From a virus: a stretch of 40,302 nt of DNA. Every line of letters begins with the position of its first letter. Positions within the stretch are counted from its first letter, which is position 1. The stretch spans positions 1 to 40,302 of IMG/VR virus record IMGVR_UViG_3300005732_000015; one strand, 5' to 3'. The notes beneath the pieces are model-generated. The model worked only from the letters and a program-made list of their open reading frames with translations. It made no database searches and was not told the origin of the DNA. This document shows, piece by piece, positions 10,998-31,136 of this stretch. The position numbers were made by a program, and so were the translations under genes.

Positions 10998-12211
10998 TGA
11001 AGTTCAAAAGAACCAAAGCCATTAACAAGATATTGGCAATGGATAAGAGGATTCGTATAGTCCCTGGAGGTACTTCTGCTGGTAAGACTTATGCTATTAT
11101 TCCTATTATTATTGACTATGCTGCTAAAAATCCAAGTAGGACAATAACAGTAGTAGCATCTACTATTCCATCAGTTAAGCGTGGTGCAATGAAGATATTT
11201 GTTGACACTATGACCGAAACTAATCGTTGGAATCGCAAGAGATGGCACGCAACCGATAGGCGTTACACATTCGGCAATGGCACAACGATAGAATTTACAT
11301 CATTTGACAATGCACATACTGCTCACGAAGCAGGTAAGAGGTCAATGCTATTCATAAACGAGTGTAATGGTGTTCCGTGGCAAATAGCAGATACCTTGAT
11401 AGCAAGAACAGTAGAGGATGAATCTATTGTCTATTTGGACTACAACCCATCTGAGGAGTTTTGGGTTGATACTGAAATAATGTCGATGGAATCTTCCGAG
11501 GTATGCTTACTCACATACCTTGACAATGATGCACTTCCAAAACACGCTCTTGAGTATCTAATGCACCGTAAAGATTTAGCCGAAAAAGAAGAGAAAGAAA
11601 ACCGACAAAGCAATAAGCACCGAAATTGGTGGAATGTGTACGGACTCGGAAAGAAAGGTAAAATAGAGGGGTTATGCTTTCCTGATATTGAGGTAGTAGA
11701 TTCTATCCCAAGAGAAGCGCAATTGCTTGGATATGGTATGGACTTTGGATATTCGACTACTCCTGGAGCAGACCCTAATACCTTAGTTGCTATGTATAAG
11801 CAAGGGAATAAACTCTTTTTAGACGAACTACTATACAGAGGAGGGATAAGGCACAAAGAGATATTTGACACGGCAAAGTCAGAAAGGATAGATTTTGACG
11901 CTCCTACCATTTGCGATAATGACGACTCCAAGCGAGATGAACTTAGATTCTTTGATAATGTGATATACTGGAATATCATTTGCACCAAAAAGACTCACAA
12001 CATCGTACCTGCCACGATCAATTTGTTGAATGAATATGACCTGCATTTGACAAGACGCTCGGTAAATGGCTTACGAGAATCAAAAGCACTAAAATGGGAT
12101 AAGACTAAAGAGGGAGTTCCTATGAATAAGCCAGTGCCGGGGAATGACCATTTTTGGGATGCAGCGAGATATATTGGTCAATATGCTTTGCCTAATAAGT
12201 ATCAGTATTAA
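10997..12211 (+). CDS. terL: Terminase large subunit (ATPase-nuclease)
   Basis: A 404-residue packaging motor. The ATPase domain has Walker A PGGTSAGKT (23-31), Walker B SMLFINE (116-122) and a coupling segment YLDYNPSEEF (146-155). The RNase H-like nuclease domain has acidic residues in GMDFGYS (D249), CDNDD (D307) and DHFWDAARY (D388). Length is normal for a siphovirus TerL. It translocates DNA into the prohead and cuts it at the end of packaging. A terminator follows 67 bases after the stop. Confidence 0.95.
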   Translation: MKFKRTKAINKILAMDKRIRIVPGGTSAGKTYAIIPIIIDYAAKNPSRTITVVASTIPSVKRGAMKIFVDTMTETNRWNRKRWHATDRRYTFGNGTTIEFTSFDNAHTAHEAGKRSMLFINECNGVPWQIADTLIARTVEDESIVYLDYNPSEEFWVDTEIMSMESSEVCLLTYLDNDALPKHALEYLMHRKDLAEKEEKENRQSNKHRNWWNVYGLGKKGKIEGLCFPDIEVVDSIPREAQLLGYGMDFGYSTTPGADPNTLVAMYKQGNKLFLDELLYRGGIRHKEIFDTAKSERIDFDAPTICDNDDSKRDELRFFDNVIYWNIICTKKTHNIVPATINLLNEYDLHLTRRSVNGLRESKALKWDKTKEGVPMNKPVPGNDHFWDAARYIGQYALPNKYQY

Positions 12212-12425: not shown

Positions 12426-13034
12426 ATGGGAATTTGCACAACTTGCGACGCAGAAATTCAAGGCGTAAGTTCTGAGGCTTGTGACCAAGTGGACTACGGA
12501 AACCAAATTGTTAAGATTTTCTTTCAAAAGGAAGAGGGTACTAACTTTGATGGTGGAGTAGGAAACGACGTTAACGAAGAAGCTGACTGGGCTACCAAAC
12601 TTGTCGCAGTAGGTGACGATAAAATCGTACAACTACCAAACATCGCGGCTACAATGCCATCCGTTGAACCAGCTATTGAAGAGGGTAATGATATTCCTTA
12701 CGGGGGTAGAGAAGCCATCGACTATACTGTTACTATTGACGGAATAATTAGATACATTCAAAAAGAGACTTTTTCGGAAGTTGAAACTAAAACTTTCTGT
12801 GAGGGTTCTACTCGTATTTGGGTACTAACTAACAAACTTTGGCTATTCGGTTCAGAGGTACAAGCAGATGCAGATTTAGGGGCAGGATTCGACGGAGCAT
12901 ACTTTACTGCCAACTCAATGGAAATCGCAGGAATTGGTTCTAAAACCAAAATCCCTTTTAACCTTGTTTGGACTAAGCAATGTATGTTGAAGCCAGTGGC
13001 ACAACTGCCATTTTTAAGAACAATCTCAGCTTAA
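12426..13034 (+). CDS. Virion structural protein, possible major tail (tube) or head decoration protein
   Basis: A 202-residue protein with no membrane segment and a beta-rich profile (residues 90-200), ending CMLKPVAQLPFLRTISA. The N-terminus has CTTC (4-7) plus C18. It is set off from terminase by a terminator and a long leader, as expected for an abundantly made virion protein. No other tail-tube candidate lies between the neck genes and the tape measure, so I favour tail tube. Its position between terminase and portal is unusual, and a head decoration or stabilising protein is the alternative. Confidence 0.45.
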   Translation: MGICTTCDAEIQGVSSEACDQVDYGNQIVKIFFQKEEGTNFDGGVGNDVNEEADWATKLVAVGDDKIVQLPNIAATMPSVEPAIEEGNDIPYGGREAIDYTVTIDGIIRYIQKETFSEVETKTFCEGSTRIWVLTNKLWLFGSEVQADADLGAGFDGAYFTANSMEIAGIGSKTKIPFNLVWTKQCMLKPVAQLPFLRTISA

Positions 13035-13038
13035 AAAT

Positions 13039-14805
13039 ATGATTCTGTCTTTCACGGAAGTACTAAATCTACTGAAAAATAAGACTAATAAAGTGGCTGC
13101 CGACTTGGCGGCCACTAAGTCTTATCACGAACTATGCGATAAGCACGTCAGCGGCATCAAATGGCTCGAAACGATTAAGAAAATAGAGTACCTCAACAAC
13201 GCGGAGGACATAGAGATTCTCAAAGAAATTGCAAGTCCGCAAACACCAGGACTGTTTGAGAAGTTTAGAAAGCAATATTCAAAGATATTCAGAGCCGAGG
13301 GGTTTTATCAAAAGGTTATATTTTCAGAAACTTACAATAACCAAAAACAAGATGCTACCACTTGGTTAAACCAAGAGTTTATGGGTAAAGGTATTAGAGC
13401 CTTTATGCAGACAAAATGGGATCAGTGGAACGCAGAAAGACCAGGGGATTTGCTCTTAGTTGATTTGCCACAAGAGCCATCAACACAACCCAATCCAATC
13501 GTTAACCTTATCGCATTAGAGCGAATACACGCCATTAAGCAGGTTGGTAAAAAGGTTATTTGGGTAATCATCAAAACAGAAAAGAAAGTAGGTGACGAGA
13601 AGTTTACCGAATACAGATATATTGATAGCACTAAGGATATGGTGCTAATTGAGCGTAATGGAAACGTTACAATCAAAGTAAACGCCAATGGAGAGCCTGA
13701 CATCATCCCCAATAGATTAGGCTATGTTCCTGCAATTAGAGTTGGACAGGTTTCAAGAGATACTTATTCTGAAACAGTAATAGTCAATCATTACTATCAT
13801 GGGTTAATGCAAGCGGATAAGATGCAAGACCGATGTAATGACCATGACTTAACTGCTAAAAAGCACAACTTCCCATTATTTTACTCTTACCCTGTTGTTT
13901 GTGGCACTTGTAAGGGTAAGAAAGAAGTCCTACATGGCGAGGATATGAGAAAATGCCGTAAGTGCAATGGCACTGGAGAGATGGAGTATAGCGTTAAAGA
14001 TTCAGCATCAGGTATCAGAATCAAGATGCCAAGAGATGCAGGTATTGCGCAGCCTATTCCAAATATTCCTACTCCTGCTGGTTATGTTACAAGGGATAAT
14101 GGAACTATTGAACTGCAAAGGGAACTCAAGCAAGATGTAAGGGAAGAGATTGAGATGTCAGTAATGGGTGTAATTGGCTTGATAGATAGGAATGTTCAAA
14201 GCACTGCCACAGAGGAACTAATAAATTACCAACCCGTTTTAGATAGGCTATATTCTTACTCAAAATCAGCAGAGTATGTTGAGTACTTCCTGAGCAAAGC
14301 AGCGTTAGATTATAGATATAATACTACCCTACAAACTATTGATGGATTCGTCAAGAGATTTGAAGACATAATAGTAAAATACGGAACTACTTACAATCTA
14401 AAGACTGAAAACGAGTGGATGTTGGAGTTTGCCGATGGTAAGAAGAATGGAGTTATTGATTCGGAGTTAAAGGAGACTCTTAAAATGGCAATTGTAGCCA
14501 AGTATGACAACCATCCTGAAGAAAAGGAAAGGCAGTTATTGCTATTGGAGTTGACACCATTCCCAACGTACACAGTTAGGGAGTTACAAGAGTTGCAGAT
14601 TGGTACGAGTGACCAGTTAGGGATAAAGGTATATTTCAATGATATTATTGAGGAAATAGAGAGGGAGTTAGAAGCACCAATTACTTCAATGGGTGATGAC
14701 ATTAGTGCTATCAGAGCCAAGATGTTAGAAACCTATAAAAAACTTATATTTGTAGAAGCACCAATAAATACACAACCAAATGGCAGCGAAGTTCAAAATC
14801 AATAG
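13039..14805 (+). CDS. Portal protein with internal zinc knuckle
   Basis: A 588-residue protein in the portal position, between terminase and the scaffold/capsid genes, of normal portal length. The C-terminal half is helical (IEEIERELEAPIT; IRAKMLETYKKLIF). Around residues 287-318 there are paired motifs CGTCKGKK and CRKCNGTGE, a DnaJ-like CxxCxG pair that should bind one zinc ion. The portal forms the dodecameric vertex ring through which DNA enters and the tail attaches. Domain identity is inferred from context and size; no short unique portal motif is available to confirm it. Confidence 0.7.
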   Translation: MILSFTEVLNLLKNKTNKVAADLAATKSYHELCDKHVSGIKWLETIKKIEYLNNAEDIEILKEIASPQTPGLFEKFRKQYSKIFRAEGFYQKVIFSETYNNQKQDATTWLNQEFMGKGIRAFMQTKWDQWNAERPGDLLLVDLPQEPSTQPNPIVNLIALERIHAIKQVGKKVIWVIIKTEKKVGDEKFTEYRYIDSTKDMVLIERNGNVTIKVNANGEPDIIPNRLGYVPAIRVGQVSRDTYSETVIVNHYYHGLMQADKMQDRCNDHDLTAKKHNFPLFYSYPVVCGTCKGKKEVLHGEDMRKCRKCNGTGEMEYSVKDSASGIRIKMPRDAGIAQPIPNIPTPAGYVTRDNGTIELQRELKQDVREEIEMSVMGVIGLIDRNVQSTATEELINYQPVLDRLYSYSKSAEYVEYFLSKAALDYRYNTTLQTIDGFVKRFEDIIVKYGTTYNLKTENEWMLEFADGKKNGVIDSELKETLKMAIVAKYDNHPEEKERQLLLLELTPFPTYTVRELQELQIGTSDQLGIKVYFNDIIEEIERELEAPITSMGDDISAIRAKMLETYKKLIFVEAPINTQPNGSEVQNQ

Positions 14806-16074: not shown

Positions 16075-17106
16075 ATGGCTTATTCAGATACTATTCTACG
16101 CAAGGCGGTTGCCAAGAGTAGAGGTAAAGTACAACAAAACGAGACTCGTAAGCAACTTACGGGTGCTTTAGACTCTTCTTTTAGAGGGCAAAGCGAAATG
16201 GTTGCTCAGTCAGAGTTGAACAGAATCAAACAATCTGTTAACCAACCGAGTGAAATTTACTTATTAAGCAAAAATGAGACGGCAGTTGGTACTGCTCGCG
16301 CTTGTTCTGCGACAGGAAACGGAGGTAGCCGTAAAATTGCTACTACTTATGATACTGTTGCTGCTGGTTTCCAAATTTCACATGATGAGATTGCGGAAAA
16401 CGAGTTTGCACATGAGGAAATCTTAGCACACGAATTAAGTGAGGCTTTCAGACGTATTGATGAAGCGTTAGACGTTGCAGCTATTGCAGCTTTAGAAGCG
16501 GCTATCACATCAGGAACGGCTACTGCTCCTTATACACCTGCTGCTGGGGTTATTTCTGTACCATTAATAGACCACACAGTTGATGGTTCTAACCTATTAG
16601 CACCATACCTTTCAAAGTTGAAAGCGCAAATGGCGTTTGATAAGTACATGGGACTTCAATTGATTGGAGACACTATCTCAATGGACTTATTAGATAGAAT
16701 CTTGAATCAAGGAAATGCGAACAGTTTGAACAACCAATTCCAAGCGAATGGTTATGACTTGTCATTCTCAAACAACATCGTTCCTACTGGTACTCCTGAG
16801 TACTCAAGGTCTTACCTTTTACCAATGGGGCATTTTGCTATCTCTACTTGGTCTAAGAACCTGAACTCAGGTAAGTCTAATATCGACATCGGAGCAGATA
16901 GATGGACTACTATTCAGCACCCAACAAGAGGTTATATGCTTGACGTTAAATACAACGCAGGTTGTGTTGACAATAGCGGAACTACTGCCGGTGCAGAAGA
17001 TGATTTCTCAGAATCATGGTTAATCTCAGTTGACTATTCATTCTTAACTGCTGGTGAAGGTCTTGCCGATACAGGAGTAAGAAGATTGTCTCTTTTAGAC
17101 TCATAA
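16075..17106 (+). CDS. Major capsid protein
   Basis: A 343-residue protein in the capsid position directly after the scaffold candidate and followed by a strong terminator. The N-terminal arm is polar and Gln/Arg-rich (ILRKAVAKSRGKVQQNETRK), and the body is Ala-rich with alternating strands and helices (DEALDVAAIAALEAAITS; LLAPYLSKLKAQMAFDKYMG), consistent with an HK97-type fold. The C-terminus ends in a strand (SWLISVDYSFLTAGEGLADT). No Lys/Asn crosslink assignment can be made from the sequence alone. A cleaved N-terminal delta domain is not evident, in line with a separate scaffold gene. Confidence 0.8.
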   Translation: MAYSDTILRKAVAKSRGKVQQNETRKQLTGALDSSFRGQSEMVAQSELNRIKQSVNQPSEIYLLSKNETAVGTARACSATGNGGSRKIATTYDTVAAGFQISHDEIAENEFAHEEILAHELSEAFRRIDEALDVAAIAALEAAITSGTATAPYTPAAGVISVPLIDHTVDGSNLLAPYLSKLKAQMAFDKYMGLQLIGDTISMDLLDRILNQGNANSLNNQFQANGYDLSFSNNIVPTGTPEYSRSYLLPMGHFAISTWSKNLNSGKSNIDIGADRWTTIQHPTRGYMLDVKYNAGCVDNSGTTAGAEDDFSESWLISVDYSFLTAGEGLADTGVRRLSLLDS

Positions 17107-17157: not shown

Positions 17158-18264
17158 ATGGTCAATTTAGCTACTCTTTACGATTGTTTTACTCCGCAAG
17201 TAGGTTGGAAGCCAACCCAAGACGCTTGTGCGGTTGTGGACTTAACCGACTATGACCAAAGCGATAGTGGTCTTTGGTATAATGATGTCCCGGGGGTTAC
17301 ATTATCCCTAATCAATGCGTCCATAGATAAGGACTCCGCAGACCTTAGAGAGTGGATAGTTAATAGCCAACAGAGCGTAGTTCGTGAGGTTATCTTAGAC
17401 TATTTGAAAATCCATAAAATGAGACTCGATGCAAAGGCATTGATTAAGCATTTAGACTTTGGAATGAAACCGAGTGCGAGCATTCGTGATACAGTAGCCA
17501 AATTCGGACGTTTTGTTGGAGTTCGTATAAAACCACAAACAAATGTTAACCTTGCTTTTATCATAGAGGATTTGTCCTTTGGGGCGGTCTTAGATATGGG
17601 AGGTTCAACAGACTTAAAGTTGTACCTATACACAGGTACACAATTAGAAAAGATTGATGAAATAGACGTTACCATAGTTGATAAAACGATCAAGTGGCAA
17701 GGCGTTAAAAAGAATATAAATTACGCGGCTTTCGATTTAACCGAGGGAGACGAATATTTCTTAGGTTATTACGAGGACGAGTTAGAAGGTAATGCGATTA
17801 GAACACAAAAGGCTTGCGGTTCATGTGGCAGTTCTCCAGTAAGAAAGTATGGTCAGCACGTTAGAGTGGATGGGTTCTCTATCCCTTCAGCACATACCTA
17901 CGGAGACAAATCACTTCCTGACATTGAACACGCAGGGTTTACTACTGAGACATTTGGAATCAACTTGAGAGCCTCTTTAGGTTGTGAGTTGACTACCCTA
18001 TTTTGCGACAATGCAAATCTATTCGCTAAGGCTATGCAGTTGAAAATGGCTATTAAATTCAATTGGGACGTATTCAGCAATGCGAACAAAAGCCAGTTTA
18101 TTCATGCAGATGCGGTAACAAGCAAAGACGATGCTCAGTTATTAGCAGAAAAATATGAGATTGATTATGGCAACGAAGTGAAAAGCATTTCTTTAGACTT
18201 TGAAAGTCTTGAATGCAATTGCAGTGGAACGCCAAACAACATACTTACAAGCATGGGGTTATGA
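17158..18264 (+). CDS. Virion protein after the capsid gene, possible neck/adaptor protein
   Basis: A 368-residue protein with several Cys pairs (KACGSCGSSP; LECNCSG) and otherwise beta-rich sequence. It occupies the slot between capsid and head-completion genes and overlaps the next gene in an ATGA arrangement, so it is part of the neck operon. The first 90 residues contain a Leu/Val segment (SVVREVILDYLKIHKMRLDA) that may be helical. I cannot assign a known fold; adaptor, neck or outer head protein are all possible. Confidence 0.5.
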   Translation: MVNLATLYDCFTPQVGWKPTQDACAVVDLTDYDQSDSGLWYNDVPGVTLSLINASIDKDSADLREWIVNSQQSVVREVILDYLKIHKMRLDAKALIKHLDFGMKPSASIRDTVAKFGRFVGVRIKPQTNVNLAFIIEDLSFGAVLDMGGSTDLKLYLYTGTQLEKIDEIDVTIVDKTIKWQGVKKNINYAAFDLTEGDEYFLGYYEDELEGNAIRTQKACGSCGSSPVRKYGQHVRVDGFSIPSAHTYGDKSLPDIEHAGFTTETFGINLRASLGCELTTLFCDNANLFAKAMQLKMAIKFNWDVFSNANKSQFIHADAVTSKDDAQLLAEKYEIDYGNEVKSISLDFESLECNCSGTPNNILTSMGL

Positions 18265-18737
18265 ACATATCCGTTAAGCAGTTTGAAGAAAGATTGAGAG
18301 GCTTAGAGCCTAATCTCCAAGCGGCAACGGCTATGGTATTAGAACCATCAAAAGATTACTTTGTAGCCATCCAAAGAGATAGAATCTTAAAAGGAGACAC
18401 TCACAATGGGGATAAGATACGCTACAATAAGCCAAGAAAAGACACTCCTGCCAATCAAGCCTATACGAGAAGATATGTAAAGTTTAAGGATAAGCGCGGT
18501 GGTCAAACAAACCACGTTGACTTAAAATTAGACGGCACATTCTTAAAGAGTATGGAAGCACTACCTGAAGGGACTGCATTTGTAGTAACCTTTACGGATA
18601 GTAATAAAGGGAAAGTAAGTGGAGTGTTGGCAAGATATGATGATATTATAGGGATAACTCAACCCGAAATGATTAAATTTAACGAACTGATTACTCCAAC
18701 CGCGATAGACTCAGTTCAAAAAATACTATTAGGCTAA
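18261..18737 (+). CDS. Head-tail connector/tail-completion-like protein
   Basis: A 158-residue protein from ATG 18261 (stop/start overlap ATGA); an in-frame upstream start at 18213 would overlap the preceding gene. It begins MNISVKQFEERLRGLEPNLQ and has basic segments (KDKRGGQTNHVDLKLDGTF). The pattern of an N-terminal helix, a basic loop and a strand-rich C-terminal half resembles HK97 gp10-type tail-completion proteins, but motif evidence is weak. It is followed immediately by the next gene, whose ATG overlaps its stop by one base. Confidence 0.5.
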   Translation: MNISVKQFEERLRGLEPNLQAATAMVLEPSKDYFVAIQRDRILKGDTHNGDKIRYNKPRKDTPANQAYTRRYVKFKDKRGGQTNHVDLKLDGTFLKSMEALPEGTAFVVTFTDSNKGKVSGVLARYDDIIGITQPEMIKFNELITPTAIDSVQKILLG

Positions 18738-21442
18738 TGGCTTGTGAAATTATCATACCCGATCAAAGTTGTCCAACTATCTACCAATCGGCAATAAGCG
18801 AGATTGCGGCTAATTTTTCAGCAAATTTAATTTGGTTGGATAAGGTTTACTCACTTGCAGAAGTAGGAGAAAAGCCAAAAGGGGCAAGCAAAATCATATA
18901 TCCAAGAGTTAATGTAGGTAAAAACGATTATAAAGACTTATTTCCCAAGCCTGAAAATGGAGATTCATATTGCTTCTTTGAGTTAGTTGGTAGTCCTGCG
19001 TTTGACTTAGAAGAAAAGACTGTTTCATTTAGCCTGAACGTAGTTTTTTGGGTTAAGTATGATGAGGCTTGTGGGGATGAGTTAGACCCTACTCACAACT
19101 TGGTGCAGCAAATCATGTATTTGACTGACAAGAATTTGACTCATTTTGTAGAGGGAACAGTTACAAGCAATATCAACAAAGAGCAGGTTTGGGGGAAGTA
19201 TGGATATACCTTTGAAGAGTTGAGGCAGGTAGAGCATCCTTATACGACTTTTTCAATAGGGTATCAGATAACTATGCAAGATGGCATAGAGTGCTTTGAT
19301 TGTTCTGGAGGTTTTAATCCTGACATTGTATTGAAGCCTATCCCAAGTGGAGATTTCATTAGAAACCAAGATGCGGTGGTTCAAACTCCTGGGAGGTTTG
19401 ATATTGAGGGCAAAGGAAAAGCCGAGGGATTCCATTCAAGAAGTTTTTACAATTTGGATGTGCCTACTGAATACGATGGGGAGTTTGAATTGATTGCCGT
19501 TTATAACCCTACTGCAAAGGCTATAGAGTTTAAGAATAAATACGAAATAACAGAGGGCGCGCCTTTCATTTTTACAATCGACACTACTAATTCGGGAACG
19601 CCTGACTATCAATTTCAGTTACCTTTCGAGGCATCTGGGACTTACGATTGTTATGTAAGTAAAGGAGACGGGTCAAATGCAGTGCATATCACATCTTGGA
19701 ATCAAGCAGAAACACTGTTGGACTATGGAGTAGGTAATGGAGGTGTTTATACAGTTAGGATTTATGGTCAATGTTGGGGTTGGAGATTTAATAATACTGG
19801 GGATAAAGAAAAGATTACATCTGTTATACAAACAGGTAGTGGATTAAGATTAGGTAATAATAATGGGTATTTTTATGGTTGTTCTAATTTAGAGTCTGTT
19901 AATTTACAAGGCTTAGATTTAACTGGCACAAATACACTAACAAGAGCCTTTATACTATGCACATCTTTAATTGAATTAGATGTTAGCGTACTAAATTTAG
20001 AAAATATAATAGCCATGAACTTATTTGTTTATGGGTGTAGTTCTCTTACAACATTGAACATGGAGAATCTTAATTCTTCAAGTTGCACCAATTTCACAGA
20101 TATGGCGATGCTATGTACATCTCTCACTGATTTCAATGTTAGTGGTATGGATGTATCAAGCGCAAATACTATTCAAGGATTTATACGCTCTTGTTCATCA
20201 TTAACGACACTTGATGTTAGTAATTGGGATGTTTCAAGTTTACAAAATGCTGAATCATTTGCTAATGGTTGTTCATCATTAATTACACTTGATGTTAGTA
20301 ATTGGAATACTTCAAGCCTTATTAACGCTCGTAGTTTTATTCAATCTTGTATATTGTTAACTACTATTGATGTAAGCAATTGGAATACTGAAAATTTAGA
20401 AAATATAAATAGATTTGTTCAAAGTGCTAAATCTGATATTTTATTAACTGGAATAGAAGATATATCAATTGATTCATTGACTACGGCATTAGAAATGGCT
20501 TTTGGTATAACTATACCAACCCAACAATGTACTGACCTTCTTGTAAATTGGGCAGCACAAGCACCAAACATTCAGAGTAATGTTCCTTTACATTTAGGTA
20601 ACTCAAAATATTTCTGTGAAGCTATACCTGCTATAACTCTTTTAACAGAAGATTATGGATGGACTATCTCAAGTGCAGGAAGTGAGGGTACTTGTCCTGT
20701 TGCATCTTTTTCAGTAAGAAAGACTAATGATTACTATACAGGAAGTGCTTTAAGAGTAAGAAGAAGTAGTGATGATACTGAAATGGATATTGGATTTGTT
20801 GGAGAGGATTTAGATACTGCTACATTATTATCATTTGTAGGTGCTAATGATGGATTTGTTACTGATTGGTATGATCAAAGTGGTTATAGGAATCATTTAG
20901 CATCTACTTTTCAACCTAAAATAGTTGATAGCGGAACTTTAATTGAAGAAAATTCGCTGCCAGCAATAGAGTTTGATGGTGTTGATGATATAATGGATGG
21001 TATAAGAATAAATTTTTTAACCCAAATATTCTCAATGACATTCGTTCATAGATTTTATGATTATACTGATGCCAATAAGAGTAATGTTTTCGACTCAAGA
21101 ATTAATTTAAATAGATGTTTACTTGATACTAATAGTGGTAATTATAGACTGAGAGCAGGTAATAACGTAACACTATCTACTTCACCTGATAATAACCAAA
21201 ATGTAACGTCTATAATATTTGACAGTTCCTCATCAAAATTTTACAAAAATGGAGTTGTTGAGAATGTAGTTGGTGACATTGGAAGTTTAGGAGGTTTTAG
21301 CGGTGGTGTTACTTTAGGTAAGCAGCTGGACGCAGGTTTTTATGAAGGAAATTTTCAAGAGATAGTTTTCTATGATAATGATATAGAGGGTGATGTAGCT
21401 GATTTTACAGATATAATAAATGACTATTTTAATATTTTTTAA
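18737..21442 (+). CDS. Tail-terminator-position protein fused to BspA/DUF285 repeats and arabinofuranosidase-like lectin domain
   Basis: A 901-residue mosaic. Residues 1-200 are a compact domain in the tail-terminator slot (PTIYQSAISEIAANF; RQVEHPYTTFSIGYQITMQD). Residues 275-350 look like a PKD-like beta module (GVYTVRIYGQCWGWRFNN). Residues 376-555 hold seven repeats of about 26 residues with CSSLTTLDVSNWDVSS-type motifs, characteristic of BspA-like/DUF285 leucine-rich surface repeats. From about 656 to 901 comes a domain with VRRSSDD, DIGFVGEDLDTATLLSF and WYDQSG, typical of the AbfB-type arabinofuranosidase catalytic/LamG-like fold. The catalytic competence is unknown. The DNA after about 19.8 kb is markedly AT-richer, indicating an acquired appendage. 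Confidence 0.75.
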   Translation: MACEIIIPDQSCPTIYQSAISEIAANFSANLIWLDKVYSLAEVGEKPKGASKIIYPRVNVGKNDYKDLFPKPENGDSYCFFELVGSPAFDLEEKTVSFSLNVVFWVKYDEACGDELDPTHNLVQQIMYLTDKNLTHFVEGTVTSNINKEQVWGKYGYTFEELRQVEHPYTTFSIGYQITMQDGIECFDCSGGFNPDIVLKPIPSGDFIRNQDAVVQTPGRFDIEGKGKAEGFHSRSFYNLDVPTEYDGEFELIAVYNPTAKAIEFKNKYEITEGAPFIFTIDTTNSGTPDYQFQLPFEASGTYDCYVSKGDGSNAVHITSWNQAETLLDYGVGNGGVYTVRIYGQCWGWRFNNTGDKEKITSVIQTGSGLRLGNNNGYFYGCSNLESVNLQGLDLTGTNTLTRAFILCTSLIELDVSVLNLENIIAMNLFVYGCSSLTTLNMENLNSSSCTNFTDMAMLCTSLTDFNVSGMDVSSANTIQGFIRSCSSLTTLDVSNWDVSSLQNAESFANGCSSLITLDVSNWNTSSLINARSFIQSCILLTTIDVSNWNTENLENINRFVQSAKSDILLTGIEDISIDSLTTALEMAFGITIPTQQCTDLLVNWAAQAPNIQSNVPLHLGNSKYFCEAIPAITLLTEDYGWTISSAGSEGTCPVASFSVRKTNDYYTGSALRVRRSSDDTEMDIGFVGEDLDTATLLSFVGANDGFVTDWYDQSGYRNHLASTFQPKIVDSGTLIEENSLPAIEFDGVDDIMDGIRINFLTQIFSMTFVHRFYDYTDANKSNVFDSRINLNRCLLDTNSGNYRLRAGNNVTLSTSPDNNQNVTSIIFDSSSSKFYKNGVVENVVGDIGSLGGFSGGVTLGKQLDAGFYEGNFQEIVFYDNDIEGDVADFTDIINDYFNIF

Positions 21443-21651
21443 TGGGAACTTTTAGAGTATATAACGCAACACAGAACACCTACTACATCATTTTCAAATG
21501 TGAGGGGGTAATTCATAACGGAGTACTAAACGAGGGATTAACATTAACGGCAGGATATGATGATGCTTGCCCGCTTCCTGAAACATTTACAGTTGAAAGC
21601 GAGTATTTAAGTAGATGTGAAGAATTAGAAATTGAACCGAATATAGAATGA
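21442..21651 (+). CDS. Small beta-rich protein, unknown
   Basis: A 69-residue protein whose ATG overlaps the preceding stop (TAATG). It has a beta-like profile (TFRVYNATQNTYYIIFKCEG; GLTLTAGYDDACPLPETFTV) with two Cys in the second half. It may be a small virion decoration or tail subunit. Nothing in it matches a known family, and its position between the fused neck protein and the lysis genes gives no firm clue. Confidence 0.45.
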   Translation: MGTFRVYNATQNTYYIIFKCEGVIHNGVLNEGLTLTAGYDDACPLPETFTVESEYLSRCEELEIEPNIE

Positions 21652-21863
21652 TAATAGAACAGTTAAAAAAATGGATAGGAGATGCAGTACACGCAATTAC
21701 AGTGGCTATTGCCTACGCTACTGACAATGGTATATTTCAATTCATCATGACTGTTTTAGCGATTGTTTACGCTTATTACCGAGTGGTTAAGATGCGTACC
21801 GAAAAGGAGAATGAAAAACTACGTCAAGAACTACTAAAGAGGAAAGTACATGGAGAAGATTAG
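21648..21863 (+). CDS. Holin-like small membrane protein
   Basis: A 71-residue protein. It has a short N-terminal amphipathic part (MIIEQLKKWIGDAVHAITVA), a hydrophobic helix (residues 30-48, FQFIMTVLAIVYAYYRVV) and a charged coiled-coil tail (RTEKENEKLRQELLKRKV). It overlaps the endolysin start by 14 bases. Single-TM holins with a charged tail immediately upstream of an endolysin are common; an anchor for another lysis component is the alternative. Confidence 0.55.
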   Translation: MIIEQLKKWIGDAVHAITVAIAYATDNGIFQFIMTVLAIVYAYYRVVKMRTEKENEKLRQELLKRKVHGED

Positions 21864-22314
21864 TAAACATATCACTTACAAAGAGGCTACCAAAAGCAGA
21901 ACGGCTCAAAAGCGTGGGATAGACAACACTCCAAATGAGGAGCAGTTAGACTCTATGAAGCGAATTGCCGAGAAGATATTTGAACCTTTGAGAGAGGGAT
22001 TAGGTGGTAATCCAATCGCAATTACATCTTTCTTTAGAGGAAAAACACTCAATAGCGTTATTGGTGGTTCAAATACAAGCCAGCACGTTAGGGGCGAGGC
22101 TATGGATATTGATGCAGATGTTTTTGGCTATTCTTCAAATAAAGAGATATTCAACTACATACGAGAGAATTTAACATTCGATCAATTGTTGTGGGAATTT
22201 GGAGACGATAATAATCCTGCTTGGGTTCATGTATCATTGAAAGAGAATCACAATAGAGGTATGTGCTTGAAAGTAACACGCAATAATGGTAAAACTAATT
22301 ACACATTGATATGA
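21850..22314 (+). CDS. Peptidase M15-family endolysin
   Basis: A 154-residue protein with the M15A zinc-peptidase pattern: SQHVRGEAMDID (77-88), giving zinc ligands H79 and D86, and WVHVSL (125-130), giving the third ligand H127. FFRGKTLN just before it is the usual preceding strand. Such enzymes cut peptidoglycan cross-bridges (L,D or D,D peptide bonds), releasing the phage at lysis. The start overlaps the holin-like gene, and the next membrane gene overlaps its stop (ATGA). No signal peptide, so export relies on the holin. Confidence 0.9.
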   Translation: MEKISKHITYKEATKSRTAQKRGIDNTPNEEQLDSMKRIAEKIFEPLREGLGGNPIAITSFFRGKTLNSVIGGSNTSQHVRGEAMDIDADVFGYSSNKEIFNYIRENLTFDQLLWEFGDDNNPAWVHVSLKENHNRGMCLKVTRNNGKTNYTLI

Positions 22315-22607
22315 CACCAATAATGATTTTGTTCTTAGGGTGCTTTGTCGGGGCAATTTTATTCGCCATGAATCCTGAAAAGGGTTTTTTAAGAAGATTG
22401 AGAAAGCATTTGCAACCTTGCAACCCATGCGCATTGTTTAGCCTATCAGTAATAGCAATAGCAGGAGTGTATATTTATGAATTCATTTCAGCACTATACT
22501 TTGGCGGTTTAACAGGATTGGCATTTGAGAACTTTAGCAACTATGTAAAGGAGTTGTTTGTTATTTGGGGAATCAGCAACGTAGTATTCAGATTTACTGG
22601 AGGGTAA
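22311..22607 (+). CDS. Membrane protein in the lysis cassette, second holin candidate
   Basis: A 98-residue protein with two to three hydrophobic segments: MILFLGCFVGAILFAM (5-20), ALFSLSVIAIAGVYIYEFIS (41-60) and a weaker one near 80-95. A basic loop between them (GFLRRLRKHLQ) would be cytoplasmic. It overlaps the endolysin stop, supporting a lysis function. With 21648-21863 it may form a holin/antiholin pair; this is inference. Confidence 0.55.
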   Translation: MTPIMILFLGCFVGAILFAMNPEKGFLRRLRKHLQPCNPCALFSLSVIAIAGVYIYEFISALYFGGLTGLAFENFSNYVKELFVIWGISNVVFRFTGG

Positions 22608-22610
22608 ATA

Positions 22611-23483
22611 ATGGGAGTAGGTAATTACAACGACATAATAAGGTCAAATATTCTAAGGTTTCCAAGCCAAGATATTCAAGGCGAAAAGGCGGTAATGCTT
22701 GGTGATGATGGCTTATTGGAGTTGTTTGACACTACCCAATTTGACAACCTAAAAAGATATTTAGGCGTTACCCAAAGGAGTGTTGGTCAGGGCGTTGATG
22801 TTGTTCGTGCAGGAGTGTTTAGAACCACTTTAGCCAATGGGTTTTACTATTCAGATGAGTTTGGGAACTTGGTAAACTTGCTACCTCCTACATCCGTTAC
22901 CCACTTAATTGGAGAGGTTAGAGATGGTTGGTTTGTGCTTAATGACAGTAAAGATAGCCTTGTAATCAACAACACTTTTTCCAACATCATAGGAGAGCCA
23001 CAAGTCTTTAATCCAACTGAATTAGTAAGCGATGTGTTTAGTCTATCAGGAAGCGGTTTAATAGCCTTTGTCGCTATCAATGGTCAATCACTAAAGCCAA
23101 GTGAATATAACTTAGTAGGAAGTGATTTAACTATCACTCCTGAAAATGGGTTTTTCTCATTGCTTGATGAGGTGTTAGTATTGCAGCAAACAACCAGTGT
23201 TGCAATTGTAGGTTTCAATTTTGAGTATGTATCTAAAACCGCCAACTACTCAATGGATGGTAGTGAATATACAGTTGACTGTACTGATAACACATTTACA
23301 GTAACGACTCCCGATGCTGCCACCAATACTGGCAAGGTATTCAATATAAAAAATAGTGGCTTTGGAATCATATCGGTAACGGCTTTTGGAGCGCAAGATA
23401 TTGATGGACAAACAACGATAATATTAACTAACGGAGAGAGTTTAAATATTCAATCCACGGGAGTAAACTTCATTATACTATGA
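22611..23483 (+). CDS. Tail appendage/fibre protein
   Basis: A 290-residue protein, beta-rich and with no membrane segment. Its C-terminal 75 residues (YTVDCTDNTFTVTTPDA, then GKVFNIKNSGFGIISV and DIDGQTTIILTNGESLNIQS) match a beta motif common in phage tail-fibre and baseplate appendage proteins that end in a short knob. The N-terminal 100 residues (MGVGNYNDIIRSNILRFPSQ) probably attach to the virion. It overlaps the next appendage gene at its stop. Confidence 0.6.
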   Translation: MGVGNYNDIIRSNILRFPSQDIQGEKAVMLGDDGLLELFDTTQFDNLKRYLGVTQRSVGQGVDVVRAGVFRTTLANGFYYSDEFGNLVNLLPPTSVTHLIGEVRDGWFVLNDSKDSLVINNTFSNIIGEPQVFNPTELVSDVFSLSGSGLIAFVAINGQSLKPSEYNLVGSDLTITPENGFFSLLDEVLVLQQTTSVAIVGFNFEYVSKTANYSMDGSEYTVDCTDNTFTVTTPDAATNTGKVFNIKNSGFGIISVTAFGAQDIDGQTTIILTNGESLNIQSTGVNFIIL

Positions 23484-24247
23484 GCAACTTAACCGACAAT
23501 TGGGCAATCAAACAAGCCATATTGCAAATACAAGGTGATTATGGGGACATTGTTAGTGTTGATGCTAAGAAGAAACGACTGTTGAAATTTGGCAGGAATC
23601 CCGACATTGATACTACTAACTTTGAAACTATTTGGTATATTGGAGGAATTGAAACCTACCCAACGGCAAACACTATTGATGAGTTTAGGAGCGATAGCGG
23701 TTCAGATACCCAATCGATAACAATTGAAGGCCATACGATTGACGGCAGCGGAGATTTTACATTTGTAGTTCAAACAGTAACTTTAAACGGCACATCTTGG
23801 GAATCATTAACAACCCCATTAGCAAGAGCGTCAAGGTTATATAATAACGATTCTGTTGACTTTAATGGTAATGTTCAAGTTAGGGATAATAGCACTGGGG
23901 ATATTCATTTAAGCGCACCTTCAGGAATAGCGAACAACCAGTCTTTAAAGTGCAGCACAACTATTTCCAAAGACGACTATTACATAATCACTCAAGTAGG
24001 CGGTGGTGCATTAAAGTCAAGTGCAACGGAGGTAGAGTTTAGGCTAAAAGTCAGATTGAAAGGCAAGGTTTTCAGAACATATTTCCCATTTTCGTCAAGC
24101 ACAAGCGGAAGTGGTAGGGCAATAACTTTAGACCCTCCAATCATTATTCCTAAAAATTCAGATGTTAGGATAGATGCCTTAGCGAATAATAACAACACTC
24201 CCGTAGAAGCCTTTTTTAATGGGTATTTAGCAAGTATAGTAGGATGA
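23480..24247 (+). CDS. Virion surface/appendage protein
   Basis: A 255-residue protein of the type seen in many marine tailed phages. Visible pattern: FETIWYIGGIETYPTANT (about 50-68), TVTLNGTSWESLTTPLARAS (about 106-125), an RDNSTGDIHL stretch and a C-terminal PPIIIPKNSDVRIDAL. I recognise the arrangement as an abundant marine phage structural family but cannot give its exact role; tail-side decoration or fibre is likely. It overlaps both neighbouring appendage genes. Confidence 0.5.
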   Translation: MSNLTDNWAIKQAILQIQGDYGDIVSVDAKKKRLLKFGRNPDIDTTNFETIWYIGGIETYPTANTIDEFRSDSGSDTQSITIEGHTIDGSGDFTFVVQTVTLNGTSWESLTTPLARASRLYNNDSVDFNGNVQVRDNSTGDIHLSAPSGIANNQSLKCSTTISKDDYYIITQVGGGALKSSATEVEFRLKVRLKGKVFRTYFPFSSSTSGSGRAITLDPPIIIPKNSDVRIDALANNNNTPVEAFFNGYLASIVG

Positions 24248-24924
24248 AACCAATAGAAGAGAATCAAATAGAAAGGGGATTAGTTCCTTTGGGTAGCATA
24301 TTACCTTATAGATTCAGTGTAATACCTGCTAAATTTCTATTGCTTGACGGCTCTACTTATAATGTTGATGACTACCCTTTACTTGGCGCTTTGTATGGTG
24401 GCTCTCCAGGGGGGACATTTGACGTTGACGATTACCGAGACTTGCCTATTTGGGGAGCAGGATCAAATGCCGTTGGAGATGTAGTTGGTAGTGATACAGT
24501 TGATTTATCGCATACACATTCAACAAGTGGCAGCACCTCTACCGATGGGGAGCATGGGCATACTACTTCAGGTACTACCTCAACCGATGGCGACCACAAC
24601 CATACAACAAGCGGCACAACGTCCACCGATGGTGACCATAACCATGATACAACAGTTCCGTCAAGAAACGCATCTTTAATAGGTATTGGATTAGGGGCGG
24701 TTGGTCAAAACGGAACATTTACATCAACAACAGACGGCGACCATTCTCATACAACATCGGGAACAACATCCACAGATGGCGACCACTCGCACACAACAAC
24801 TGGAACGGCTGCTGACAATGGCGACCATTCGCATACTACATCAGGGACAACAGATAGCCAATTAGGTTCAACCGATAAAAGACCAAGAAGAGGACACGTT
24901 AACTGGATAATTAGAGCGTTATGA
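24244..24924 (+). CDS. Tail-collar fibre with HxH metal-binding repeats
   Basis: A 226-residue protein. The N-terminal 80 residues form a phage tail-collar domain (LGSILPYRFSVIPAKFLLLD; DYPLLGALYGGSPGGTFDVDDYRDLP). Residues 85-200 contain seven HxH motifs (HTH, HGH, HNH, HNH, HSH, HSH, HSH), most set in a repeated DG-[DE]-H-x-H-T-T-[ST]-GT unit. These resemble the metal-coordinating HxH turns in the tip of T4 gp37. The C-terminus ends RRGHVNWIIRAL. Likely a trimeric fibre with a row of bound Fe or Zn ions, acting in adsorption. An insertion of about 25 residues interrupts the array. Confidence 0.75.
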   Translation: MKPIEENQIERGLVPLGSILPYRFSVIPAKFLLLDGSTYNVDDYPLLGALYGGSPGGTFDVDDYRDLPIWGAGSNAVGDVVGSDTVDLSHTHSTSGSTSTDGEHGHTTSGTTSTDGDHNHTTSGTTSTDGDHNHDTTVPSRNASLIGIGLGAVGQNGTFTSTTDGDHSHTTSGTTSTDGDHSHTTTGTAADNGDHSHTTSGTTDSQLGSTDKRPRRGHVNWIIRAL

Positions 24925-25097
24925 TGAAGCAAATAGCAATTATTAGGGATTCAAATAATAAATCTTTAGCATCTCCAAAATGGATATATTCTATGACTGA
25001 CGCAGAAGAAGTGACCTCTGTTAATGCCGAAATTGAACAATATTTAAAAGCAAACCCAACGCATTATGTTATCTTTGGGAATATATGGGTTGAGTAA
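24921..25097 (+). CDS. Small protein of the tail operon (58 aa)
   Basis: An ORF of 58 residues starting MMKQIAIIRDSNNKSLASPK and ending THYVIFGNIWVE. Its ATG overlaps the preceding stop (ATGA; the second ATG at 24924 is an alternative start), and its own stop TAA overlaps the next ATG as TAATG. That tight coupling on both sides strongly supports a translated gene. No motif recognised; a small tail or chaperone accessory is possible. Confidence 0.65.
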   Translation: MMKQIAIIRDSNNKSLASPKWIYSMTDAEEVTSVNAEIEQYLKANPTHYVIFGNIWVE

Positions 25098-25723
25098 TGA
25101 TAAAAGTTGACGGGAAATATCATATTTGCGAGAATATAGAGGACTTGAATATTTGCAGATTTATAGAAATGCAGGTTTATTCAAAACTCGAAAGGCATTA
25201 TAATGACATTTTCTCACTACTTATTTACATTGAAGGGGAAGATGCAAGCCGAACAGATGAAAGCCGCTTAAAAGAGCGTCAAAACCGATTTGAAGTGATG
25301 GGGCATTACCGAATGAACCCCGTACAAAAGGCGAAAGAGTTTTTAAAAGAATCTCAAAAGCAATTACAACACATTTTTCCTACTGATTTTCAAACGGATG
25401 ACTTCCTTACTGACCAAATTAGGCAGTATTTAATCGCCAAATTAGAGGTGTTTAGTTTAGACTCCTTTTTGAGTGAGGAAAGCATAGCCAAATTGCAAGA
25501 GATTTCAGATATTCTAAATGCTGAATTGGACGAAACCCAAGACCCAAGTGTAAAGGAAATTTATCAATCATTTGAAAGCCTTTGCTTTTTTGTGAGCCAA
25601 GCAGATAGCACCATAACCACTCCCGAATTAAAGAAACTAAGCGTTTACGACTTCTATACTTACAAGATGAACGTCATGGAGAAGATAAAAACGCAGCAAA
25701 AACAACTAAAGAAACATGGCTGA
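25097..25723 (+). CDS. Tail assembly chaperone candidate
   Basis: A 208-residue acidic/helical protein directly upstream of the tape-measure gene, with the two genes overlapping by 8 bases. That slot usually belongs to the tail assembly chaperone. It begins MIKVDGKYHICENIEDLNIC and has a charged central region (RNRFEVMGHYR-like segments; DEFLTDQ-type helices). I looked at its 3' end for the slippery heptamer of the classic gpG/gpGT frameshift and found no convincing one, so the assignment rests on position. Confidence 0.5.
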   Translation: MIKVDGKYHICENIEDLNICRFIEMQVYSKLERHYNDIFSLLIYIEGEDASRTDESRLKERQNRFEVMGHYRMNPVQKAKEFLKESQKQLQHIFPTDFQTDDFLTDQIRQYLIAKLEVFSLDSFLSEESIAKLQEISDILNAELDETQDPSVKEIYQSFESLCFFVSQADSTITTPELKKLSVYDFYTYKMNVMEKIKTQQKQLKKHG

Positions 25724-28700
25724 TAAGGTAATAGTTCCCGTTGTCCTCGACCTTGACCAGCAGAGCGTCAACGATGTCATAAAGAAATTAGCTTCAATCG
25801 GATCAAGTAGCGATGCCTTTGGTGGTTTGGCTAATGAGGCAAAGAAAGGGATTGAGGAATTAGAGGAAGAAATTAAGCGGCTCAAGAAAGAGTTAAACAC
25901 GGCTTTTGATACGTCAAAAATCGGGGCTTATTCTGATATGGTTGATGGCTTAACCGACTCACAAAAGGAGAACGTAAAGCAAGCGCAAAAGGTTGTTGAT
26001 AGTTATGACACTCAACAAGAAGCGGTATCTGCATTAGATGCTGAGATAAGGCAACTTCAAAACGATATAAAGGCAGGTAAGAAAGCGCAGGACACGCTGA
26101 TAGACTTGAATCAAAAGGGAACGGACTCTTATGAGCAGTTAAATAAGGAGATTGCCGATAATATTGTAAAGCAGAAATTACTAAGAGAGGAAAAGAAGCG
26201 TCTTGAGAAGTCAGTCAATAGAGAGATAAAAGCGGCAACATCTTTAAAGGGTAGTTATAATGATTTAGTAGCGCAGACTAATGTACTAAGGAATACAGTA
26301 AAGGATTTCAGGGTTGGAGTAGATGGAACAGAGGAAGATTTACGAAGCCTACAACAACAGATTCGAGAAAACAATACTGAGTTAAAGGAATTTGATAAGC
26401 AGTTAGGCGACAACTTTAGGAATGTTGGTAATTATTCGGATGGGATAAAGACGGCTATTTTAGAAAGTGAGGGATTTGGAGAGGTTACTGGTGTACTTGG
26501 TGGGGTATTGACAAAGGTTTCTTTGATTTACGGAACACTTAAAGACAACTTAGAAAACGCTAAGAATGAAGCAGCAGCATCAGCAAAGACATTTAAGATA
26601 TTTGGCAAGTCCGTAAACGTAAGCACAAAGGCGGTTAAGGTTTTAAATGTAGCGTTAAAGGCAAGTATTATAGGTGCTATTATTGCAGCGGTTACATTGC
26701 TTGGTAGGGCATTCTCAACAAGTTCAGATGGCGCGTCAAGGTTAGAGGCTATCATGCTTAGTGCAGGAGATGCTTTTACCATAGTATCTAATGCCTTTAC
26801 AGAATTTGCCACCAACATATTCAACGTAATCCCTGCTATAATTGAGGGGTTCAAATCAATATCGGTAACAGTTAATCAATTTGGAATACCTAATGGGGTA
26901 ACCTCAGACTTTAGCAAGTTAAAAGAAGCTATTAGCGGAATAACGAACCCAACCAAAAAAGCAAGAGAGCAGCTTAATGGATTGTACGATGCGAATATTG
27001 ACTTTATCAATTCCCAAAAAGCACTCCAACAAGAGATAGCGAGGTCAGCAGTTGAGATTGCTAAACTTGGAAAGATAGAGGAGGAACTTGCGGAACTTGC
27101 AGGGGATGCCACCATAGCACTTGACGAGCAAAGAAAGTTTGCAATGCTATCCATCAAAGCCAGTCAAGACAGACTTAACGAAGAGATTAGAATTGCCCAA
27201 AAGGAAAAGGATTTAATTTCTGAACGTAGGAAAGATAGAGAGGCAAGGCTTGGAGCAGATAATGTTGAGGTAAAGGAACTCGTTAAGCAGGAAAATGAAT
27301 TGCTCGCAGTAGTAATTGAGAAGCAACAAGAAAGGTCAGTTCTTGAGTTGCAAAGGGCAAGGGAACTAAGACAGATCAACCAAGATATATTTGAGCAAGA
27401 TTTAGACTTCTTATTAGACTTCTTTGATAAACGTAAGGGGATAATTGAGAACTCCATTGCAGATGAAACAAAGTCATTTGCAGAAAGAAATGCCCTACTT
27501 CAAAAACTAAGAGAGGATAACGATAAGAACTTCCAAAAGGAAACAGAATTATTCGTTAAGCTTGCGAATGAGCAAATAGATTCAAGTGAGGAAGTATTAG
27601 CCGCGGCAAGAAAAAGAGTTGCCGAGTCTAAGAACAGGTCAGCAGAAGAACAACAAATTGCAAAGGATGAACTCAAACAAGTGCAGGGGGTTATTGCAGC
27701 GCAAAAGAAAGTCCAAGACCAATTTGCAACCTTAGACTTTGAAGCCTTAGTAAAAGAGGAAGATGCAGAGCAATTAAGGGAGTTTATAAGGCTATTAGGG
27801 CAAGCAGAAATACCAACCGCACGTCTTAGCGAAGTTATCCGGGAGCAACAACAAATCAGGTTAGACAACGAGGTAACACAAAAGGAATTAAACGCAGAGC
27901 AAATTGAAATCCGTAAGCAACTAACAGAAAAGATAGAGGACTTACTTGCTGAAAATATTGAGGATGAAACCGATGCTGCCACCGCAGTTGAGAAGATCAG
28001 ATTCGAGAGAGCCAAAAAGGAAATTGAAATTGAATATGGTAAACTTGGAGATTTAGAAGCGGTCCAAAAGGCAATAGAGGAACTCGAAAAGCAGCACGTT
28101 AGGAACTTAGAAGAAATACAAATAGATGCCATTGCAAGGCGAGAGGATAGAGCCGATTCTGAGGAAGAGTTGGAAATATTACGAGCCAAAAACGCAGTAA
28201 ATGCCAACATCAAAAGCGCAAAGAAACGTGAGGAAGCCATTGCAGCCATTGAAGAGAAAGCACTTGCCGACAAGATAAAACGTAAAGAGGAAGAGATTGA
28301 AGCCTTGATTAAGGTTGCAGGCGAGGGTAGTGATGAGGTGTTACAAGCCGAAATAGAGTTGGAAAAACTAAAGCAAACTCAACTACTCGAAGAACAAAAG
28401 AAAGGTCAAAATAACCGATTAGCAGAGGGAGCGCAATTTGCCGCTGATGCTTTAGGTATTGCAGCCGAACTAAGCCGAAAGGAACAAGAAAGGCTACAAA
28501 AAGAACTGGATGTCCAAAAGGAAAACGTAGAAGCACAGAGAAAACTTGCTCAAGAAGGTGCTGCGAATACTCTTGCCTTTGAAGAAGCAGAAGCAGATAA
28601 GAGAGCGCAAAGGTTATTGGAGGAACAAAAGCGAGAGCAAAGGATTCTAAAAGCCAAAGCCATATTTGAGTTATTCAATTCATTTGTTTCACAAGGGGAT

Positions 28701-29195
28701 GGAGCAGCCACTGCCACGGCAAAAGCAATAGCAGGAACGGCAATAGTAGAAGCAGCCGCAAAACTTGGAGAAGGTACACATGGAACAGTTGCAGATGAGG
28801 TTGCTCGCCAACAAGGTCACATAGATAGCCGAGGGATTTCCAAAGGGCGTAAGCACTCGCAAGGCGGTTTCTTAGTTGAGTTTGAGGGAAGTGAGGGAGT
28901 TCTTTCAGGTCAAGAAATGGCAAACTTGGGACTTAAAAACTTCATGGCTATTAAGAAATTAGCCAATAGAGGGCGAATAGGATTGGATATTTTAGACCAA
29001 GAGAGTAACATTAAGAATGAAAGCCGTAAGGCAGATGTTGCCATGCGTAGTTATGATTTAAAGGGAGTGTTCCAACAAGCACAAGCACCGGTCATTCACA
29101 AGTCAGAAATTACCGCAGCAGGAGACTACATCGACACGAAAATTGAGAAAGGATTTAAGAAGATAACGGCTAAAAAGAGAACTAACCTAAGATGA
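25716..29195 (+). CDS. Tape-measure protein
   Basis: A 1,159-residue protein dominated by long Glu/Lys/Gln/Leu coiled coils (for example about 15-260 and 440-940), with an Ala/Gly-rich hydrophobic block around residues 311-335 (KASIIGAIIAAVTLLGRAFS), as is usual for the membrane-inserting part of tape measures. It sets tail length and guides DNA entry; by the usual rule of about 0.15 nm per residue it implies a tail of roughly 170 nm, typical of a siphovirus. No lysozyme or peptidase motif is visible. It overlaps both the chaperone-position gene and the first tip gene. Confidence 0.85.
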   Translation: MADKVIVPVVLDLDQQSVNDVIKKLASIGSSSDAFGGLANEAKKGIEELEEEIKRLKKELNTAFDTSKIGAYSDMVDGLTDSQKENVKQAQKVVDSYDTQQEAVSALDAEIRQLQNDIKAGKKAQDTLIDLNQKGTDSYEQLNKEIADNIVKQKLLREEKKRLEKSVNREIKAATSLKGSYNDLVAQTNVLRNTVKDFRVGVDGTEEDLRSLQQQIRENNTELKEFDKQLGDNFRNVGNYSDGIKTAILESEGFGEVTGVLGGVLTKVSLIYGTLKDNLENAKNEAAASAKTFKIFGKSVNVSTKAVKVLNVALKASIIGAIIAAVTLLGRAFSTSSDGASRLEAIMLSAGDAFTIVSNAFTEFATNIFNVIPAIIEGFKSISVTVNQFGIPNGVTSDFSKLKEAISGITNPTKKAREQLNGLYDANIDFINSQKALQQEIARSAVEIAKLGKIEEELAELAGDATIALDEQRKFAMLSIKASQDRLNEEIRIAQKEKDLISERRKDREARLGADNVEVKELVKQENELLAVVIEKQQERSVLELQRARELRQINQDIFEQDLDFLLDFFDKRKGIIENSIADETKSFAERNALLQKLREDNDKNFQKETELFVKLANEQIDSSEEVLAAARKRVAESKNRSAEEQQIAKDELKQVQGVIAAQKKVQDQFATLDFEALVKEEDAEQLREFIRLLGQAEIPTARLSEVIREQQQIRLDNEVTQKELNAEQIEIRKQLTEKIEDLLAENIEDETDAATAVEKIRFERAKKEIEIEYGKLGDLEAVQKAIEELEKQHVRNLEEIQIDAIARREDRADSEEELEILRAKNAVNANIKSAKKREEAIAAIEEKALADKIKRKEEEIEALIKVAGEGSDEVLQAEIELEKLKQTQLLEEQKKGQNNRLAEGAQFAADALGIAAELSRKEQERLQKELDVQKENVEAQRKLAQEGAANTLAFEEAEADKRAQRLLEEQKREQRILKAKAIFELFNSFVSQGDGAATATAKAIAGTAIVEAAAKLGEGTHGTVADEVARQQGHIDSRGISKGRKHSQGGFLVEFEGSEGVLSGQEMANLGLKNFMAIKKLANRGRIGLDILDQESNIKNESRKADVAMRSYDLKGVFQQAQAPVIHKSEITAAGDYIDTKIEKGFKKITAKKRTNLR

Positions 29196-30913: not shown

Positions 30914-31136
30914 TAGCCAAAATGAGGTGCTTAACAAAGCATTAGAAGATTTGAAGAATGCGTCAAATCAATTAGGTAGCACATTAGATTCTGCATTAGA
31001 AGAGGCAGGAGTTTTAAAAATGGCAGGCGTTAAAGCCAAGTTCTACAACTTGAAAGATGGTTCAGTAATGATTACTTTTGATGGGCAAGCACCCAAAAAA
31101 GCGGCTCAGAAAATAATTAAAAAGCTAAAGCAATGA
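30900..31136 (+). CDS. Small tail-tip operon protein
   Basis: A 78-residue protein whose ATG lies 14 bases before the end of the tip gene, with its stop overlapping the next ATG. The N-terminal half is a Asn/Leu/Glu helix (NEVLNKALEDLKNASNQLGS) and the C-terminal half is a short beta segment plus a Lys-rich end (AAQKIIKKLKQ). Position suggests a small tail-tip assembly protein or chaperone for the giant downstream gene. No family recognised. Confidence 0.5.
   Translation: MDNFNSQNEVLNKALEDLKNASNQLGSTLDSALEEAGVLKMAGVKAKFYNLKDGSVMITFDGQAPKKAAQKIIKKLKQ

Follow-up and report, generated by a model that had tools for sequence, protein, structure and literature searches.

The window analysed here, which is the whole 40,302-base IMG/VR virus record IMGVR_UViG_3300005732_000015, encodes a siphophage tail terminator that continues, in frame, for 711 residues beyond its terminator domain. 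The 56 homologous terminators found, all of them from distant relatives, are 177-244 amino acids long (median 191), and the window protein alone has 901. Most of the extension consists of BspA-type leucine-rich repeats (LRR) and a lectin-like domain, and we think it likely that this protein is the phage's only terminator and that it also serves as an accessory adhesin, with arms on the neck ring that would help adsorption. The first-pass annotation had described a large ORF with a BspA/DUF285 array and an arabinofuranosidase-like lectin domain; this description holds, as the ORF has no internal stops and both Pfam domains score above their cut-offs. The features are listed in Table 1.

Table 1. 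Features of the adhesin-bearing terminator gene, of the surrounding phage genes and of a contig with a related junction
Feature	Positions	Strand	Evidence or content
Terminase large subunit	10997..12211	+	phrog_2, E 2.5e-18
Probable tail tube protein	12426..13034	+	Position equals that of PDS1 gp47 (9wwa_N, 'tube protein'); weak pairwise E 0.002
Portal	13039..14805	+	phrog_7376, E 6.5e-31
Major capsid protein	16075..17106	+	phrog_7231, E 1.2e-41; Flavobacterium/Polaribacter phage matches
Adaptor	17158..18264	+	phrog_8189; PDS1 gp52 (9wwa_I, 'adaptor protein')
Head-tail/neck morphogenesis protein, just before the terminator	18213..18737	+	phrog_6195 tail protein, E 5.5e-9
Terminator with extension, 901 aa	18737..21442	+	Intact ORF
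Tail terminator domain, residues 1-190	18737..19306	+	phrog_8145, PDB 9wwa_h, 56 homologues, AlphaFold2/Foldseek
Linker, residues 191-270	19307..19546	+	GC3 0.35, z 0.25, phage-native codon use
PKD-like cap ahead of the LRR, residues 271-355	19547..19801	+	tblastn to phage BspA caps; invariant G-D-G
Composition break after codon 329	19724	.	GC3 shift; support interval 303-336
Seven 26-residue BspA/DUF285/TIGR02167 repeats, residues 371-552	19847..20392	+	Pfam, NCBIfam, self-similarity
LRR C-terminal end and cap, residues 553-645	20393..20671	+	Aligned with the LRR-cap-LamG junction of L032
Predicted LamG/ConA-like jelly roll with GH54-like start, residues 646-901	20672..21439	+	PF09206 at 650-726, phrog_10356 at 661-884, Foldseek
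Cassette	21442..24924		Small ORFs, Peptidase M15 endolysin (21850-22314), 290-aa orphan, 255-aa protein, collar-domain fibre (24244-24924)
Probable tail assembly protein before the tape measure, PDS1 gp56-like	25097..25723	+	Pairwise E 9e-5, position
Tape measure protein	25716..29195	+	Position, length, phmmer to relatives' tape measure ORFs
L032 ORF (separate phage contig, 5' end open)	3-4466		BspA LRR, then five tandem copies of the lectin-like domain

The Phage and Its Gene Order

Both ends of the window carry an exact 68-base direct terminal repeat, which makes it very likely that the phage genome is complete. The portal, capsid, adaptor and terminase all match phage families. The capsid homologues belong to Flavobacterium and Polaribacter siphophages, those of the terminator to Parabacteroides and Alistipes phages, and a replication protein has a BT4734-like domain; therefore, the host probably belongs to the Bacteroidota. 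Since gp52 and gp47 of the Parabacteroides phage PDS1 have been deposited in PDB entry 9wwa as adaptor and tube protein, the order of the window genes can be read as tube, portal, capsid, adaptor, neck protein, terminator and tape measure. The probable tube gene sits between the terminase and portal genes, as it does in PDS1, which is an odd location for a tube gene.

The Tail Terminator Domain

Homology, gene order and fold all identify residues 1-190 as a siphophage tail terminator. The phrog_8145 family matches residues 13-183 (E 2e-9), and the best PDB match of the whole protein searched alone is chain h of 9wwa, labelled 'terminator protein' (E 0.0024). Using phmmer against a small set, PDS1 gp54 (189 amino acids) is matched with E-values of 1.8e-7 and 7.5e-8. 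A profile match to PDS1 gp54 in the PDB (E 1.3e-89) is circular, gp54 being in the profile, and the terminator HMM matches the window protein with E 1.1e-38 as a model that was iterated with the window row in it. The near-invariant residues Trp33, Pro56, Tyr65, Phe80, Phe81, Pro168 and Cys186 are kept in the window domain. The gene order adaptor, neck protein, terminator is conserved, and the window terminator likewise follows a neck morphogenesis gene.

An AlphaFold2 model of the domain, built from 40 homologues, has a pLDDT of 80.9. A Foldseek search of the PDB with this model found the terminators of lambda (gpU), Mu, E217, Pa193, T5 (p142), Chi, R4C and T4; the upper part of the list consists mostly of terminators and neck caps, with individual E-values and TM-scores that are modest (TM about 0.2-0.58). 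The first-pass annotation had put the N-terminal 200 or so residues in the tail-terminator slot and had proposed comparing a model of this part with known terminators. Homology (phrog_8145, 9wwa_h), gene order and fold agree on this placement, and the fold search, led by terminators, does not speak against a neck protein.

The survey of homologues began from an adaptor-based scan of IMG/VR, which gave 44 loci, to which earlier loci and isolate phages were added; the set has 47 distinct terminator proteins, the window's counted. Nearly all of the homologues stop a few residues from the conserved Cys (window residue 186). The next longest terminator (244 amino acids, contig L038) has about 50 extra residues without a recognised domain. 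Thus, the expectation that homologues would end near residue 240 was borne out by all 56, and the opposite case, in which every relative has the same full length and uniform composition, is not what the short homologues and the composition break described below present. The sampled relatives are distant ones, at most 24% identical to the window terminator. In the terminator tree, the window forms a long branch, and its placement is therefore unsafe. IMG/VR scans that used a single sequence (the N-terminal domain, the adaptor, the terminase or the LRR region) found no relatives, and for the phage itself only queries built on alignments succeeded. A genome scan with residues 201-901 had one Bacillales BspA protein as its sole match.

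A divergent N-terminal domain is what might be seen if the protein were essentially a fibre whose decayed terminator-like domain served as its neck anchor, with another protein terminating the tail. However, no second terminator was found among the window ORFs with the HMM filters off, and the position, the fold and the near-invariant residues listed above are all retained; we consider this explanation very improbable. The gene is most likely the phage's only tail terminator. Two ways of separating the domain from its extension were considered and rejected. A programmed frameshift could yield a short terminator, but the slippery heptamers in the right frame that come closest to codon 190 are at codons 29 and 419. 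For an internal start giving a free extension, the ATG at codon 180 is without an evident ribosome site.

The Cap and the BspA-Type Repeats

The linker has no family matches in Pfam and PHROG searches. The predicted model of residues 191-901 is weak (mean pLDDT 57); a full-length mixed alignment was left out of the folding because its terminator rows fell on the lectin domain.

Seven full repeats, each exactly 26 residues long, run from residue 371. The DUF285 match has an E-value of 2.9e-17, above the Pfam cut-off, and TIGR02167, the NCBIfam family for 26-residue repeats, matches with E 1.9e-17. At lag 26, the BLOSUM self-similarity reaches 1.55, compared with a maximum of 0.01 in 2000 shuffles at lags 20-33. 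The seven DUF285 repeats of about 26 residues that had been picked out at first sight are thus confirmed. Residues 271-355 and the LRR align as a single unit with phage BspA-type proteins, including those of LR756500 (by tblastn, over residues 271-648), KZY1 (277-536), Sphingomonas phage PAU and Synechococcus phage S-CBWM1. The label 'PKD-like' for residues 271-355 is a provisional one taken from the G-D-G motif, which is invariant in the alignment, and from the homologous phage BspA caps; no Pfam model confirmed a PKD identity for this segment. BspA-type repeats are common in phages and poorly understood. By analogy, those of the window protein would be a surface-exposed adhesin.

The C-Terminal Domain

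The match of residues 650-726 to ArabFuran-catal (PF09206) has an E-value of 4.1e-7, above the Pfam cut-off, and spans only positions 8-87 of the 315 in the profile. The phrog_10356 family, which covers residues 661-884, is annotated as 'virion structural protein', and the matches to residues 646-901 are virion or tail proteins from Synechococcus, Arthrobacter, Gordonia and Aphanizomenon phages. The core of the lectin domain is modelled with pLDDT above 90 and the remainder poorly. In the Foldseek search, GH54 arabinofuranosidase is best (E 1.5e-7), followed by lectin-type jelly rolls, and the viral fold matches are ConA/LamG proteins. Judged by the model, residues 646-901 are a LamG/ConA-like jelly roll, which may have a carbohydrate or a protein as its ligand.

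The Pfam score and the GH54 enzymes at the head of the fold search would also suit a working GH54-type glycosidase, that is, a neck-borne depolymerase that trims the host capsule. However, the sequence match to AkAbfB is limited to residues 15-87 of its chain, and E221, the residue mutated in 6sxr that we take to be the AkAbfB nucleophile, is outside the aligned stretch; furthermore, the lectin-type jelly rolls come next in the fold search. Because the sequence likeness to GH54 is limited to the first 80 or so residues, enzymatic activity is not supported, and we regard a depolymerase as improbable. The AbfB/LamG-like fold that was originally proposed therefore stands as a jelly roll with a PF09206 match above the cut-off, but not as a GH54 catalytic domain recognisable by sequence beyond the first 80 or so positions.

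In the phage contig L032, the LRR end, the cap and the lectin domain are joined in the same way, with five lectin domain copies in total. Therefore, the LRR-cap-lectin junction is not unique to the window phage.

A Composition Break inside the Gene

Third-position GC (GC3) is 0.36 up to about codon 329 and 0.16 beyond it (LLR 24.3 against a permutation maximum of 8.5). With adjustment for amino acids, the break stays at codon 329 (chi2 54 vs 25). The LRR and lectin parts are each more than 6 standard deviations off the phage's own third-position usage, and the terminator, the linker and the PKD-like part do not deviate from it. Native composition flanks the odd stretch on both sides, the downstream genes being back to native values. 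The GC contents that the first-pass annotation had counted by hand on 60-base lines (38, 30, 22 and 32%) were all correct on recount. The shift that they suggested is far above chance, but it lies near codon 329 and not at residues 200-240.

A sharp break inside an ORF could also mean that the fibre gene of some other phage was wrongly joined to the terminator during assembly. This is the least probable of the explanations that we considered. The genome closes with its terminal repeat, the native composition on both sides would require two misjoins, the first of them in frame, and the break is inside a domain that continues across it and not between unrelated reading frames.

Given the drop in GC3 at about codon 329 and the native usage of residues 191-329, the LRR-LamG tip (residues ~330-901) seems to have been acquired recently as a module. 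The extension had been described as grafted onto a neck/tail protein. The 56 short homologues support a graft, which apparently took place in two steps, and the simplest reading is that an older extension reached as far as the cap and that its tip was recently replaced by recombination inside the cap.

Proposed Role of the Extension

Where the tail tube ends at its top, terminators assemble as hexamers (PMC11784142, PMC10276861), and so if the fold behaves as usual, there would be six arms at the neck. Residues 1-190 would assemble into a hexameric ring, which closes off the tail tube and docks to the head, and the extension of each subunit would run through the linker, the PKD-like cap and the BspA-type LRR solenoid to the LamG-like lectin at its tip. 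The roughly six long arms around the virion neck would bind glycans or surface proteins and so promote reversible adsorption to the host, probably one of the Bacteroidota, or to the host's matrix, with the tail tip making the committed contact. This agrees with the surface-adhesion or polysaccharide-binding appendage that was first suggested, in that the extension is built of adhesion and lectin modules also present in virion and tail proteins of other phages. The hexamer, the surface display, the ligand binding and the role in adsorption are all things that we infer. As for the ligand, we would put a host surface glycan first, an environmental matrix second and enzymatic trimming third.

The second of these would have the arms bind animal mucus or algal or exopolysaccharide, concentrating the phage near its hosts without touching a bacterial receptor. 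Polymeric ligands are bound by LamG and BspA-type domains elsewhere, and candidate fibre genes are present separately in the window, among them the one for the 226-amino-acid collar-domain protein. Mucus binding is documented for a Flavobacterium phage (PMC6867891). However, lactococcal neck carbohydrate-binding modules at a comparable position bind host cells, and we consider purely matrix-binding arms unlikely.

A fusion of adhesin and terminator would fix the number of copies at that of the ring and make the adhesin an unavoidable part of every virion. It would show that very large extensions can project outward from the joint of head and tail, offer a natural design for neck-displayed binding domains and put BspA-type repeats at a defined point of the virion. 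More tentatively, the obligatory terminator ring may have been turned into a six-armed, exchangeable adhesion collar, whose LRR-lectin tip can be swapped by recombination inside the PKD-like cap, shifting the host or niche range at the neck and leaving the tail tip untouched. C-terminal extensions of a terminator are not always tolerated; the T5 terminator polymerised aberrantly when it was given a C-terminal His tag (PMC11784142).

Comparison with Known Systems

The window protein is like other siphophage terminators (lambda gpU, T5 p142, PDS1 gp54/9wwa_h, phrog_8145) in its 190-residue domain, its fold, its gene position and its single copy, whereas the sampled homologues, at 177-244 amino acids, are without its 711 added residues of LRR and lectin-like domains. 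To have little beyond the domain is a usual, although not strictly defining, trait of terminators that a 901-amino-acid protein does not share. Neck fibres are known but are usually separate proteins, and we found no report of a tail terminator bearing an adhesin in the literature searched, the coverage of which was incomplete. Myophages and PVC16 are described as having larger terminators, with additional domains that serve the sheath or are a duplicate of the fold (PMC11784142).

The nearest parallels may be the neck passage structure (NPS) proteins of the lactococcal 936 and P335 phages, which are large (~500-900 amino acids), are located at the neck and carry carbohydrate-binding modules at the C-terminus; in a GFP assay, weak binding to host cells was seen for one such module (PMC6669499). 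Phages exchange these C-terminal modules among themselves (PMC10684548). The domain order of the window protein fits a large neck arm ending in a glycan-binding module, with the location and the binding being presumptive. However, the NPS proteins have a BppU-like collar domain of their own where the window protein has a terminator, and their middle is a coiled coil instead of a BspA LRR solenoid. The TP901-1 collar has been reported to be non-essential; a tail terminator is normally essential.

With the BspA family of LRR surface proteins (PF03382, TIGR02167/PARCEL), the window protein shares its seven 26-residue repeats, well above the family cut-offs, and with other phage BspA proteins the PKD-like cap as well. 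Unlike the BspA surface proteins, it is neither secreted separately nor held by a surface anchor, but is fused to a virion neck protein. The lectin-like domain resembles GH54 alpha-L-arabinofuranosidase B in its jelly-roll fold and in how it begins (VRRSSDD, WYDQSG), but the catalytic part of the enzyme is unrecognisable in it. Evolved Dit, Tal and MTP proteins with carbohydrate-binding modules likewise join a core virion protein to a glycan-binding module, but they are at the tail tip or along the tube, whereas the window protein would be at the tail-head joint.

Neighbouring Genes

A 3.5-kb cassette (21442-24924) lies between the terminator and the gene before the tape measure; in most relatives, the entire gap from terminator to tape measure is ~1.1 kb. 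Lysis genes within the neck-tail block look unusual for this phage group. The 255-amino-acid protein (23480-24247, phrog_8198) matches cyanomyovirus proteins, and in Syn1 and S-RIM44 the phrog_8198 homologue is two genes behind gp13-gp14-gp15-gp16, near the T4-type neck and terminator genes, hinting at a further neck or fibre decoration. A 1729-amino-acid tail-region protein (31133-36322) has no Pfam or PHROG match. In the collar-domain protein, TSGTTSTDGDHNH-type repeats occur several times in nearly perfect form, and their His-rich pattern recalls metal-binding fibre tips.
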